Source of the DNA: Haloprofundus halobius
GTDB taxonomy: Archaea > Halobacteriota > Halobacteria > Halobacteriales > Haloferacaceae
DNA length: 64,000 nt
Direction of reading: 5' to 3'
NCBI RefSeq assembly: GCF_020097835.1
Contig: NZ_CP083669.1
Location: 1 to 64,000 of the forward strand
Below the pieces are notes generated by a model. It saw only the letters and a program-made list of their open reading frames with translations. It did no database searches and was not told the DNA's origin. A program made the translations under genes and the position numbers. Of this stretch, positions 20,298-44,589 are shown in pieces. Position 1 is the stretch's first letter. Each line of letters begins with the position of its first letter.

Positions 20298-20601
20298 CTC
20301 TGCTGGGAACCAATTGGATGCGATCAAAGCGGCTCTGTTGGAATCCTCAATCACTGACGGTTCGTTGAGGCCGTGCTGAATTGAGTGCGTGAGTTGGTCA
20401 AGCAATGTTCCTGGCCTCAGTGTTACGTACAGAGGATGCTGGAACACTCTCAGGTACCGCATTGGTGATCCCACTGTTTAGGTCAAGATGCACCTAGTAC
20501 CGAACCCTGGGCCGAGAGATCAGGCGTCCGGGCACAGTGGCGTCAGGAGTACGGTCCGAACAGTCACAGACCTTTACACCTGGGAGCCAACAGTACGGAC
20601 A
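20298..20601. repeat. Intergenic region with a solitary IS-end-like sequence
   Basis: No convincing gene. GGCTCTGTTGGAATCCTCAA at 20331–20350 matches the end sequence seen at 25704, 33724, 35466–35484, 44415 and 44574–44589, typical in form of haloarchaeal IS/MITE termini. No partner end or transposase is visible here, so it is a relic. TTTACA near 20572 is the likely TATA box of the next gene. Confidence 0.55.
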
Positions 20602-21258
20602 ATGGCTACTGAGGCGACGTTCACGGTTCCGTCAGACCAGTTCCCCTTGGGGACAGTGTTCACCCAACTGCCGAACGTGACGGTCACGCTGGAGCGACTT
20701 ATCCCTGCACAGGACGTGGTGATCCCGTACTTCTGGGTGCGGGGAACCGAAGTCGACGACATCGAGAGCGCGTTCACCGAGCACCCCGGCGTGCAGGCGA
20801 TTCGGCTCGTTGACTCTGTCGGGGACGAGTATCTGTTACGCGTCGAGTGGGCGTTAGATTACGACGACGTGCTCACCATCCTGGCTGAGACAGAGGTTCC
20901 ACTAATCGAGGCCACCGGGACACACCAACAGTGGACGTTCGAGGTCCGCGGTGACGACCGAAGCGACGTCGCAGACTTTCAACGACGCTGTCGAGAGCTA
21001 GACATCCCGATCACGTTGACGGAGCTGCACGCACTGACGCCGGTTGAGACGGGGACCGAAGCCGCCCTCACTGACACGCAGCAAGAGGCGCTGGTGCTTG
21101 CCTACGAGCGTGGGTACTTCGAATCCCCCCGCGAGGTCACGTTGGAAGAACTCGGCAAGGAACTCGGCATCTCACAGCAGGCCGTCGGCTCCCGCCTCCG
21201 CGGGGGGATCAAGCACGTCCTCGGGAGCACGCTCTCCGCCCTGACAGCCCGCCCCTGA
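20602..21258 (+). CDS. Bat-like regulator with HTH_10 domain
   Basis: A 218-residue haloarchaeal regulator. Residues 1–155 are the bacterio-opsin-activator-type sensor region. Residues 165–215 hold the HTH_10 domain (LTDTQQEALVLAYERGYFES, then LGKELGISQQAVGSRLRGG). ATG 20602 is chosen because TTTACA about 28 bases upstream fits a leaderless promoter and the fold starts there. The upstream in-frame extension to 20488 runs through noncoding sequence. Targets are unknown. It opens a cluster of chromosomal-type regulators. Confidence 0.85.
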   Translation: MATEATFTVPSDQFPLGTVFTQLPNVTVTLERLIPAQDVVIPYFWVRGTEVDDIESAFTEHPGVQAIRLVDSVGDEYLLRVEWALDYDDVLTILAETEVPLIEATGTHQQWTFEVRGDDRSDVADFQRRCRELDIPITLTELHALTPVETGTEAALTDTQQEALVLAYERGYFESPREVTLEELGKELGISQQAVGSRLRGGIKHVLGSTLSALTARP

Positions 21259-21328
21259 TTGGATACTTAAAATAGGTTTGTACCTGAAAAGGGTAGTGTG
21301 ATTGCCGTCGGACGCCTGCCTTAGTACT

Positions 21329-21688
21329 ATGGTTGGGACTTCTACCGCCTTCGACTCGGTGCTCGACCTGTGTCAACACCAGCACCGCCGAATCGTTCTT
21401 GGAACGCTCGCAGAAGAACAGCGGTCGTTAACACTCGACGACCTTACGAAGGCTATCCTCAAGTACAATCATCAGACGCCACTGACAGAGGCGTCCGAAG
21501 ACGTACTAACAAAAATTCGCCTCTCGTTGTATCATGTCCACCTCCCAAAGTTGGCCGCGGAAGGACTCATCGACTACGATTCAGAACGCCACCTCGTGGA
21601 ACCGACCGAGCAATTAGATCAGGTGCAGCCGACCCTGTCAACGATTCTTGATGCCGATTCCTCGCTCGAAGCACCGATAGAACTGTAA
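21329..21688 (+). CDS. DUF7344-like winged-helix protein
   Basis: A 119-residue haloarchaeal HTH protein with the hallmark SLYHVHLPKLAAEGLIDYDS (residues 68–87). An N-terminal segment resembles ArsR-type winged helices (HRRIVLGTLAEEQRSLTLDD). ATG 21329 is preferred over the upstream in-frame codon at 21302. CTTAAAATA near 21266 may be the promoter, which would leave a short leader. It is paralogous to the gene at 24592 and probably regulates transcription. Confidence 0.8.
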   Translation: MVGTSTAFDSVLDLCQHQHRRIVLGTLAEEQRSLTLDDLTKAILKYNHQTPLTEASEDVLTKIRLSLYHVHLPKLAAEGLIDYDSERHLVEPTEQLDQVQPTLSTILDADSSLEAPIEL

Positions 21689-21753
21689 TGCCGATCAACC
21701 ACTCACATTCCTCGTTCAAACCCCGACAGCGGTGAAATAGAGGGATACTACAG

Positions 21754-21936
21754 ATGGCAAAACAGCGTGACGGTCAACTCACCCGAACGGTCGCCAAGTG
21801 CGATACCTGTGGGTCGATCTACGTGGCTAAGATAAGCTCCGACGGATCGTTCTATTTGGATGGGCTGTCGGAGTGTCCCTGTGGCGATGAAGAACTCATA
21901 TTACCCGCCTCGTCCCCTGGCAGTATCGATCAGTGA
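21754..21936 (+). CDS. Small zinc-ribbon-like protein
   Basis: A 60-residue protein with CDTC (residues 16–19) and CPCG (residues 41–44), spaced as in a small zinc ribbon. Haloarchaea have many such miniproteins, some regulatory. It follows the DUF7344-like gene by 65 bases and may use its own promoter. No specific family is recognised. Confidence 0.62.
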   Translation: MAKQRDGQLTRTVAKCDTCGSIYVAKISSDGSFYLDGLSECPCGDEELILPASSPGSIDQ

Positions 21937-22068
21937 ATGTCCCGTTGGGTGCCAGAAGGTCCGAACCGGTGTGGCTGAACGTATCCTCTCTTTGCGGCAT
22001 GCAGTTCGTGACAGATACTGGGTAGATAACTGACTGCTATGTTAGGTTGTTCACCTACAGACTAGGTC

Positions 22069-32650: not shown

Positions 32651-33550
32651 ATGTCAAGTAAGAACGTCTTCGGTAATGAGGTTTCGGTCGATGAACAGGC
32701 ATTCGAAAAAGCGGACGAAGCGGCGGTCGATGAAGATGGCTTCGAGGTCGTCGATGAGACGCCGGAGTTCCAGGCGACGGTGCAGATGGAGGTGCAGGCG
32801 AAGGTGGATGCCAACCACCCGGACGGGATGGTCGACACCAGTGACGAGCGGATCTACGGTGCGACCCTCGAACAAGAAGAGCGCATTCGGGCCAGGGAGG
32901 CTGAGCTGGAGCGCATCAGTGCCCAGGCGGAGCTGGGGACGCAAGAAGGTCGGGAGAAGCGGACGAGAGATATCGCGGCGAAGCGGAGCGCTGAGCGGCG
33001 TGCTGAGTTCCAGAAGCGGGCGGCGAGCGTGGACCCGTGGGCGGACCCAGAGCGAGACGATCCTCGTGCAGAACTCACGCAGGAGCAGTTGGCGGCGGTG
33101 AACAAGCAGTCGATGCGGCTGGCCGAAAAGCTGGATAGCTGGTCGCGAGCAGCGATTGGTCGGCGGCTGGGTGAAGCCGTAGTCGGTGGGAAAGACCTGA
33201 CGAGTGCAGTCGTTGGGGTGTTCGAGGAGTTGCAGACGGCGCCGGGACAGGTGGTTCCCATCGGGATGCTCGAGGACGTCAATCGCAAAGAGGTAAGCAT
33301 CGAAGGTCGCGTGACGCAGCTTTGGGAGCCGTCGAGTTCAGCCATTTCCCAAGTCGGCCTCATCGAAGACGAAAGCGGACGAACGAAGTTCACCAGCTGG
33401 GTTGCAAGCGACCAACCCTGGATTGAGGAGGGCGAACACGTTCGTATTCACGGAGCGGCGAAGAACTGGTACAACGGGCGCGTCTCGGTGGCTCTGACCG
33501 GTTGGACCACGGTTCACTTCCCCGAGCGCGGTCGGTGGTGGGAAGCGTAG
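32651..33550 (+). CDS. RPA-like OB-fold single-stranded-DNA-binding protein
   Basis: A 299-residue protein. Residues 1–150 are acidic and helical (long charged helix EEERIRAREAELERISAQAE type). Residues 200–299 form an OB fold (VSIEGRVTQLWEPSSSAISQ, LIEDESGRTKFTSWV, GEHVRIHGAAKNWYNGRVSV). Haloarchaeal plasmids often carry such single-OB RPA-like proteins. A role in plasmid replication or transfer is plausible. It has no close operon partner and is preceded by the GC-rich structured block. Confidence 0.8.
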   Translation: MSSKNVFGNEVSVDEQAFEKADEAAVDEDGFEVVDETPEFQATVQMEVQAKVDANHPDGMVDTSDERIYGATLEQEERIRAREAELERISAQAELGTQEGREKRTRDIAAKRSAERRAEFQKRAASVDPWADPERDDPRAELTQEQLAAVNKQSMRLAEKLDSWSRAAIGRRLGEAVVGGKDLTSAVVGVFEELQTAPGQVVPIGMLEDVNRKEVSIEGRVTQLWEPSSSAISQVGLIEDESGRTKFTSWVASDQPWIEEGEHVRIHGAAKNWYNGRVSVALTGWTTVHFPERGRWWEA

Positions 33551-33723
33551 CCAGCGTACGCGGCCTTCTTTTTATTGTGTGCCGGACCGACCCAGACCCC
33601 ACCTCCCCACCCTCCGCTCCGTGCTCGCTCCGCTGCGCGCGCAGCCACGACCTATGCTACGCAGAAATTCTCAACAACGTCGTTAGGCACTCTCATCGTA
33701 TGTACCTATTATCAAGAGAAAGT
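33551..33723. other. Spacer after the RPA-like gene
   Basis: No gene is seen. A T-rich run (CTTCTTTTTATTG, near 33563–33575) 20 bases after the RPA stop could terminate transcription. The last 8 bases (33716–33723, GAGAAAGT) are the left target-duplication copy of the following element. Confidence 0.4.
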
Positions 33724-33943
33724 GGCTCTATTGAAATCCTCAGCCGGTGATCGTTCTGAGCGTCCGTGCTGGATATAGAGCGCGTGTCTCCCAGCGGGTC
33801 GCCAGTGCACGAAAGACTACTCGTCTTCCATGGAATCTATGACACTCGACTTATGAATTGGAACACTCGTTCCCCCTTCGCCCACTATTCGGCCCCGTCG
33901 AATCGGTTGTTTCTATGCTGGAAGATTGGTGAAGTCGTCGTAC

Positions 33944-34615
33944 TCACCGCTCCTCTTGACCTATCGAGTCACCAACCCATTCAACGACGCGTAGGAGTTC
34001 CACCATCGGCGATGGATCGGACACTTGTTCGATCGTGTGACGGGCGGTCCCGAACCCTGGTGGAAGGAGATCTGCTGAGACAGTGAGCGGACGCTCGCCA
34101 TCTGAGGCCCACTGAACTTTCCGGTACATGATGTGATTTGGTGCAAGGTCACTGTACTCTGTGGACCGGTCATATACAGTCGGACCCTCAACCACGCACG
34201 GAGCGATTCCACTAGGCAGATTCACTAAGAGAACATCACCGGGGTCAACTCCTTCAACGAACGTTCGGATACTCCCAATAGCTTTCCCAGCCTTAATTTT
34301 TGTGTCTTCATCGGGATATATCTCCTCATGCATAATGTCTCGAATTACATCCCACTGGATTTGACCCTTGAGCGTGTTTCCGTAGGGCTCGTGCACGGTT
34401 TCAGGGCTCAGGACACTACCGTCTGTAGCGAGCTCAACACCACCGGTCGTGGCAAGCGCCCAATCCGAGATCGTGACGACACCGTCTTCGAACAGTCGGT
34501 CAGCGTAGGCTTCTCGGTCGACGTCATGGTATGCGATATTAAATTTGAATAGTCGGTTGGATGAGACGACATCCCTAATTCGCCGCCATAGGGGCGTCTC
34601 CTCGGAAGTGCTCAT
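33944..34615 (-). CDS. Hypothetical protein carried by the transposon-like element
   Basis: A 223-residue soluble protein with no recognised family. Visible features are a short helical N-terminus, a middle region KAGKAIGSIRTFVEGVDPGD, VLLVNLPSGIAPCVVEG, and a beta-rich C-terminal half. It is divergent from the next gene, with about 130 AT-rich bases between them. As one of only two genes in the element, it may be cargo such as a defence or stability factor, but nothing in the sequence proves this. Confidence 0.6.
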   Translation of the reverse strand: MSTSEETPLWRRIRDVVSSNRLFKFNIAYHDVDREAYADRLFEDGVVTISDWALATTGGVELATDGSVLSPETVHEPYGNTLKGQIQWDVIRDIMHEEIYPDEDTKIKAGKAIGSIRTFVEGVDPGDVLLVNLPSGIAPCVVEGPTVYDRSTEYSDLAPNHIMYRKVQWASDGERPLTVSADLLPPGFGTARHTIEQVSDPSPMVELLRVVEWVGDSIGQEER

Positions 34616-34742
34616 ACAGATACCAAGCGCCCGTTAGTCAAATATCCAGCGGACATTAGCCAAGGGCCGAATATAATATAGACATAGGCCAAACGCTATT
34701 TTACCCTTGGGTTTTTTCTACTTGGCCCCACACATAGCAGAT

Positions 34743-35237
34743 ATGGGACCTACTCCCCACTCCGAGGCGGTTGCAATTGCCTGCGAGAACAAGGCGGTAC
34801 CCAGTGAATCCCAGGGGCGGTACAACGCAACTGGGCTTTTGGTCGTCGACTACAGCACAGGCCACTCCTTCAACAAAGACGACCACGACGGTAGCGCCTC
34901 AACCACAGCGTTCAACGCCGTAAGAGATGCCTCCCGCTACGGTGGAATCGGAACGATTCGAAGCCCTGATTCGGAACTGATCACCGTAGGTCGGTACGGA
35001 ACTGACGGCATCCGGCTGCTGGACTCTGTTGGAACCAAGGACTACGACCTGAAGGGGCTGCAGTTCGAGGAGTACGCAGTACTTGGACCGGGCGACGGCC
35101 GGTACGGACGTGCGAAGGATATCTCAGGGACGCTAGGATCAACCGTTCGTCATCTTCCCGATGACAAAGCGGCTGACCTGCGGGAACTGCTCGCTGAACT
35201 CGAAGCTGAAGGGAGAATGCGGCGGCCTGTTCGATAA
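34743..35237 (+). CDS. Hypothetical protein carried by the transposon-like element
   Basis: A 164-residue protein starting MGPTPHSEAVAIACENKAVP. ATG 34743 is preferred over an upstream in-frame start at 34707, which would add twelve residues. The sequence suggests an alpha/beta fold with a conserved-looking HSFNKDDHDGSA segment and a helical end (DKAADLRELLAELEAEGRMR). No family is recognised. A short frame encoding a single membrane helix follows (35245–35401). Confidence 0.58.
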   Translation: MGPTPHSEAVAIACENKAVPSESQGRYNATGLLVVDYSTGHSFNKDDHDGSASTTAFNAVRDASRYGGIGTIRSPDSELITVGRYGTDGIRLLDSVGTKDYDLKGLQFEEYAVLGPGDGRYGRAKDISGTLGSTVRHLPDDKAADLRELLAELEAEGRMRRPVR

Positions 35238-35244
35238 GCAAGCT

Positions 35245-35401
35245 ACCCCATTACCAACGTATCACCCGGGTCGAACTCGAAGTCCATCTTGGGACCGAAC
35301 AACAATTATCTGAACTCCCACTCCGAGAACTTGTACTCATCTTAGCTGCAACCGCTTCAGTCGTGTACCTGTTCACCGACTACGTAGGCAATGTCCAGTG
35401 A
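35245..35401 (+). pseudogene. Possible fragment encoding one membrane helix
   Basis: A frame without a visible start reads YQRITRVELEVHLGTEQQ and then ELVLILAATASVVYLFTDYV before TGA 35399–35401. The composition looks protein-coding and ends in a transmembrane helix, so it may be the tail of a truncated gene captured at the right end of the element. Low confidence. Confidence 0.3.
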
Positions 35402-35496
35402 CCCGCTGAAAAACCCCTTTGCTGACCCCATTCTCTATATCCAGCACGCGGTTTCTGTCCACTAGTGAGGATTTCAGCAGAGCCGGGAAAGTAAGA

Positions 35497-44414: not shown

Positions 44415-44589
44415 GGATTTGTTGAAATCCTCTGAGATTGATAGGAGTGGCGTACTATAGAGGGTGTATGCAGCACACCAGAATCGTTTCTTCCACTTGG
44501 TTTGCAGGGAATCAGCCGATAAGTAGGTTATTCAGCGATCGGTTGTTTCAGGCGAGAATCTATCTGGAGAATAGCATTTCAATAGAGCC
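44415..44589. mobile_element. MITE-like relic with IS-type ends
   Basis: GGATTTGTTGAAATCCTCTG (44415–44434) and, read inward from 44589, GGCTCTATTGAAATGC resemble the ends of the element at 33724–35484. The interior (about 140 bases) has no gene and no target duplication is obvious, so this is a small degraded element. The rest of 44370–44634 shows nothing else. Confidence 0.5.

Follow-up and report, generated by a model that had tools for sequence, protein, structure and literature searches.

A 1761-bp element in the window (the whole 64,000-nucleotide stretch of Haloprofundus halobius DNA analysed here) is most probably, at a probability of roughly 70%, a non-autonomous transposon that is moved in trans and offers a single slot for cargo between a Long (L) and a Short (S) end, within a family whose relatives form arrays that swap gene cassettes at core sequences. 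The evidence comprises the insertion itself (an empty site in one relative and a filled site in another), the statistics of L and S ends across related genomes, insertion sequence (IS) copies with the same outer tips and, for cassette exchange, the points at which homology between related units stops.

The element and its insertion site

The element entered a plasmid site, where it is flanked by an 8-bp target duplication, and it carries no transposase (Table 1). Its outer inverted arms, each 19 nt long, agree at 17 of the 19 positions (89%), as an earlier note on this DNA had stated, and the second shared block reported there (15 bases, about 40 bases inward) extends to a perfect 16-nt inverted repeat (33765-33780 and 35433-35448), whose arms lie 41 nt inward on the left and 36 nt inward on the right. 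The near-perfect target duplication is likewise present, with GAGAAAGT and GGGAAAGT agreeing at 7 of the 8 positions; the sole irregularity is a single extra A that adjoins the left copy (TCA-A-GAGAAAGT in the window, TCA-GGGAAAGT at the empty site). That empty site, proposed in the note as a check, was recovered on the Halorussus aquaticus plasmid NZ_CP100403.1, where the two flanks adjoin and GGGAAAGT occurs once, and Halobacterium sp. DL1 (CP007061.1) carries a 95% identical element at this position; from the empty and the filled site together, it follows that the window element is an insertion. Matches to the end pattern numbered 6 in the window (0.13 expected) and 24 in the whole genome (0 with a reversed control pattern), and these counts, together with the empty site in a relative, exclude chance as the origin of the terminal repeats and the duplication. 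Among the open reading frames (ORFs) and domain matches inside the element, no transposase was found between the ends, and the element contains none of the internal sites described below for larger family members.

Table 1. Coordinates and supporting evidence for the element, its ends, cores and cargo genes
Feature	Position	Strand	Evidence or remark
Whole cargo element without transposase	33724..35484		1761 bp; empty in Halorussus aquaticus, filled (95%) in Halobacterium sp. DL1
Left target duplication, GAGAAAGT	33716..33723		Single-copy GGGAAAGT at the Halorussus aquaticus empty site (L027)
Right target duplication, GGGAAAGT	35485..35492		Flank letters and empty site
Long (L) end: outer terminal repeat (33724-33742) and inner core arm	33724..33788	+	L model match, 61.5 bits, E 2e-16; alignment of ends
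Short (S) end: outer terminal repeat (35466-35484) and inner core arm	35428..35484	-	S model match, 52.3 bits, E 1.8e-13
L-side inner core: arm GTGCTGGATATAGAG and next spacer/arm; second block of the earlier note	33765..33797	+	Perfect 16-bp inverted repeat with 35433-35448; outer limit of core approximate
S-side inner core	35418..35448	-	Inverted repeat and core definition; outer limit of core approximate
Cargo gene 1, 223 aa	33944..34615	-	No Pfam/NCBIfam match; dN/dS 0.10 against DL1
Cargo gene 2, 164 aa	34743..35237	+	PHROG 26856; dN/dS 0.07 against DL1

Other features of the window touch on the same family. At 20331-22031, a second L-end scores 55 bits and is accompanied, approximately 1.65 kb away, by a degenerate half-site of S-like sequence (21983-22031); the two are probably a further, eroded unit of the L/S family. 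Positions 44415-44589 hold a 175-bp mini-element with two GGCTCT-type tips and no matching target duplication. An OB-fold (replication factor A-like) plasmid gene lies at 32651-33550; since the same gene also stands immediately upstream of the cassette platform of plasmid pMHR1-2 (L262), elements may land preferentially downstream of it.

Cargo genes

The two interior genes are both intact and under purifying selection: their dN/dS ratios (Table 1) are as low as those of neighbouring plasmid genes (0.10-0.18), which argues that they are functional genes and not debris. The earlier proposal that a non-autonomous element has moved genes is supported. Gene 2 has a homologue in Haloarcula hispanica pleomorphic virus 3 (HHPV3); apart from this likeness, searches for cargo function returned sub-threshold, weak matches only, and AlphaFold predictions for each cargo protein alone reached pLDDT values of 31 and 36, too low for use. 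Homologues are scarce family-wide (3 others for gene 2 and 3 others for gene 1, at ~27-38% identity, across 170 genomes), and no L/S-type ends were found at the loci of these distant homologues. The expectation that the same two genes would recur between the same ends therefore held at the orthologous DL1 site only.

A family of paired ends

Aligned ends from this and other genomes fall into two classes, Long and Short (the latter ~7 nt shorter), which have in common GGCTCTGTTGAAATCCTCA, a TGAyAG block and an inner GTGCTGAATACAGAG arm. Models of the two classes, built from the aligned ends and searched against 25 related genomes, matched in 23 (L) and 21 (S) of the 25, with 40 L-model and 46 S-model matches in the window's own genome, and a sequence pattern used to collect ends matched 13 haloarchaeal contigs and 0 viral contigs. 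Facing pairs within 8 kb numbered 67 among the matches listed, and 65 of these joined one L to one S end (51 of 53 with the model-training pairs set aside; sign test, 1.6e-13). Target duplications matched at 6 or more of the 8 positions in 33 of the 67 units, compared with 0.8% when left and right flanks were re-paired. The window element has the L/S pair of ends that is standard for this large haloarchaeal family; the pairing and duplication statistics make it a member of a defined family, and the competing possibility named in the earlier note, that the ends belong to two unrelated IS relics, fails.

What these units carry is very mixed, with 113 predicted cargo proteins matching 95 Pfam families (for example, universal stress protein, TrkH, CNNM, methyltransferases, regulators, luciferase-like proteins and hydrolases), and no transposase family is among the 25 commonest cargo Pfam families (among the matches listed, with singletons shown in part). 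Two units at different sites in two genera (L173 and L189) have the same four-gene cargo (97% DNA identity), and their outermost end sequence is far more diverged. Neither end nor core sequences were found printed in the open-access papers on haloarchaea that were searched (subscription papers and ISfinder lay outside this search).

A candidate mover

An IS with the same outer ends, for which the earlier note had suggested searching, does exist. Copies of this IS, ~1.2-1.5 kb long (one is 3.3 kb), share the same outer 17 bp, are flanked by 8-bp duplications and encode a 273-aa transposase of the DDE_Tnp_1 type, which plasmid annotation assigns to the IS5 family under the names ISHla2 and ISHxa2. 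A 95% ISHla2-type copy sits on the very DL1 plasmid that bears the sister element, and two transposase-coding copies (L244 and L245, both with degraded transposase genes) have an L-type far end and duplications matching at 8 of 8 positions; the right end of the IS usually has no inner core. The best-supported mechanism is thus one in which an ISHla2-type IS5 (DDE) transposase, the likeliest mover, would recognise the shared outer GGCTCTGTTGAAATCC ends and move the element in trans. No ISHla2-type transposase was found in the window's genome, where the sole homologue (43%) has different ends; because the enzyme is encoded on the DL1 plasmid and was not found in this genome, the window copy is probably now stranded. 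It weighs against this mover that three genomes (G000, G001 and G020) are rich in L/S units yet have few or no close transposases, and that transposase number per genome does not track element number.

Other candidates and observations concern the same tips. S-ends beside a transposase homologue of 36-37% (L241 and L242) were considered as autonomous partners and rejected, as they look like another IS inserted into the end (an GGCCTTGTTT tip follows directly). Several ISHla2-type copies, or units that share their tips (L117, L121, L122 and L124-L126), have a small membrane-protein-like ORF between the transposase and the far end, and are IS with a passenger gene. An origin of the element from the IS6 or IS1595 family is extremely improbable: 8-bp duplications and GG tips do occur in IS6 elements, archaeal ones included (PMC7986276, PMC6807381), but PF13610 and PF12762 are both absent from the window's genome, and haloarchaeal IS6 ends (GGCACTGTCTAGTTAAG and GGTAGTGTTCAGATAAG) do not match those of the element. 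IS6 was rejected as the mover for the lack of PF13610 and the mismatched ends, and IS1595 for the lack of PF12762.

Among known kinds of mobile DNA, the element most resembles mobile insertion cassettes (MICs; for example, MIC231 and the qnrD elements of Proteeae (PMC3913671); defined in PMC3129680), with which it shares passenger genes between IS-like ends, the lack of a transposase, a target duplication and probable movement in trans. Judged by its sequence, the single unit appears to work like a MIC: its passenger genes lie without a transposase between IS-type repeats, a target duplication and an empty site are present, and a related IS with matching ends occurs in relatives and on the DL1 plasmid, none being found in the window's own genome. 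Unlike MICs as described, the L/S family is very large and haloarchaeal, its two end types are almost always paired and it has multi-cassette members with internal sites. The element shares with ISHla2 and ISHxa2 the outer tips and duplication length and, with some copies, the L-type end; it differs from them in having no DDE transposase of its own between the ends, as an IS5 insertion sequence would; the inner core motif, for its part, is missing from most copies of the IS. Miniature inverted-repeat elements (MITEs) are short and non-coding, whereas this element spans two selected genes. The ISH2-type MITEs of haloarchaea (ISH8-related ends, 10-bp duplications and one small ORF in ISH2; PMC3119063, PMC10264941) also lack a transposase and are mobilised in trans, but their ends and duplication length differ and they have no variable multi-gene cargo.

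Multi-gene arrays

Larger family members contain internal sites (I) of ~75 bp between their genes (36 distinct sites; consensus CACCCTCTGTATCTCGCACnCCGTTnCTGACAGnnnTTGAGGAGTTCGnTCACCGACTGCTGAATACAGaGCGCG) and are laid out as L-gene-I-gene-...-S, usually with one gene per interval. On contig 3 of the window's genome (62200-71000), for example, an L-end is followed by nine internal sites, all on a single strand, and an S-end, and on the Haloprofundus plasmid pMHR1-2 six intervals hold exactly one independently annotated gene each; less regular arrays have other intervals with zero, two or three predicted genes. The orientation of every internal site in the surveyed L/S units fits the L-to-S order (nine sites scored as opposite by our script belong to L151, whose left end the script left untyped but is L), and the orientation of genes within arrays is mixed. 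A cassette of TrkH and universal stress protein genes stands alone in one unit and, at another place in that genome, leads an array of three cassettes (L145 and L147).

If the family consisted of mobile insertion cassettes and nothing more, IS5-type ends would move assorted genes in trans and arrays would build up by nested insertion and deletion, with no dedicated exchange. Outer ends, 8-bp duplications and a trans-acting IS account fully for single units in this way, and internal sites do carry inner-end sequence like that of the L and S ends. However, the outer terminal repeat is not present in internal sites above chance (7.9 of 13 matches, compared with 7.6 in shuffled sequence), and internal sites are thus not simple nested insertions; they also have one common, co-oriented 75-bp consensus, and cassette homology stops at the cores, which leaves this explanation unlikely.

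Arrays made of attC clusters recombined by an integron integrase are a far less probable alternative still, at very long odds. Other archaea are reported to have integrons (PMC9668308, a paper whose text has no word starting with 'Halo'), and co-oriented site-gene-site order, usually with one gene per interval, and exchange of platform content are features that the arrays share with integrons and with clusters of the CALIN type. The motifs GTTRRRY / RYYYAAC, however, were found at site ends in 0 of 34 cases, no conserved or covarying hairpin was detected (RNAalifold, 0 pairs; mean hairpin z of -0.5) and the regions of 34 kb and 24 kb that surround two arrays carry no annotated integrase; the arrays are, moreover, bounded by transposon ends with target duplications, and their genes are of mixed orientation. 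The arrays work like integrons, yet by the features tested they are not integrons.

Apparent cassette exchange at the cores

The inner cores are dyads of approximately TGCTGAATACA, 5 bp and an inverted arm, with a constant spacing of 5 bp that is clearest on the S side. Flanks and ends are shared, and contents differ, among a set of units that includes the contig 3 array, a 710-bp unit from another genus and the pMHR1-2 array (L260, L259, L262 and L092; L259 being the 710-bp unit and L262 the pMHR1-2 array), and likewise between L257 and L258; in both sets, homology ends at the inner cores. Elsewhere, a single cassette is what two loci have in common, as between two Haloprofundus plasmids (L261 and L262; 772 bp at 97%), between contig 2 of the window's genome and pMHR1-2 (L005 and L262; 283 bp at 90%) and between genomes G055 and G010 (L108 and L174; 905 bp at 83%). 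Homology breakpoints lay no more than 20 bp from a core in both sequences in 16 of 26 cases, against 0.08 expected at random, although several comparisons share a platform and are not independent, such that the effective number is smaller than 26.

Exchange at the cores looks like site-specific recombination, although no recombinase for the cores is annotated within the two array regions (34 kb and 24 kb). Conserved ends could also yield shared breakpoints through general recombination, by homology or microhomology, with no dedicated enzyme: haloarchaea recombine readily, and the conservation of cores and sites suffices for short homology. We consider this doubtful, however, as identity at the crossovers spans only ~12-15 bp beside unrelated or ~65% similar DNA, and the cores hold a constant, 5-bp-spaced dyad of the kind bound by recombinases. 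The p-dif (Xer) modules of Acinetobacter plasmids are gene modules between short dyad recombination sites; the arrays resemble them in having dyad-bordered gene modules and differ in the sites themselves, which in the arrays are co-oriented within IS-like ends.

Under the preferred reading of a trans-moved transposon with exchangeable cargo, a dyad core would lie just inside each end and, in multi-gene members, cores would also border the ~75-bp internal sites; recombination at the cores would then add or exchange cassettes while ends and flanks remain. The window element would be a transposon-borne platform with one slot, its capacity for cassette exchange being read from relatives only. The broader proposition, that haloarchaea have a widespread cassette system distinct from integrons, seems to us an even call; in such a system, site-specific recombination at 27-bp dyad cores next to ~75-bp internal sites would insert, exchange and array single-gene cassettes on transposon-borne platforms, whose L and S ends have IS5-type tips.

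Implications

The window element is a new MIC member, and its family amounts to at least a new variant and could be a cassette system of a new kind; the asymmetric ends, the diverse cargo and the multi-cassette arrays emerge from relatives in the family survey and go beyond the single-window view of the earlier note. The element itself would offer a concrete case of an IS family that packs host genes into compact, reusable units and bears them across genera. If the cassette system is real, one recognisable device would deliver a large part of the accessory genes labelled 'hypothetical' on haloarchaeal plasmids and chromosomes, the richest genomes having tens of detected ends each, and the system would stand as an archaeal equivalent of the integron made of different parts. 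Mobile cassettes could then be listed, their exchanges dated and the recombinase hunted.
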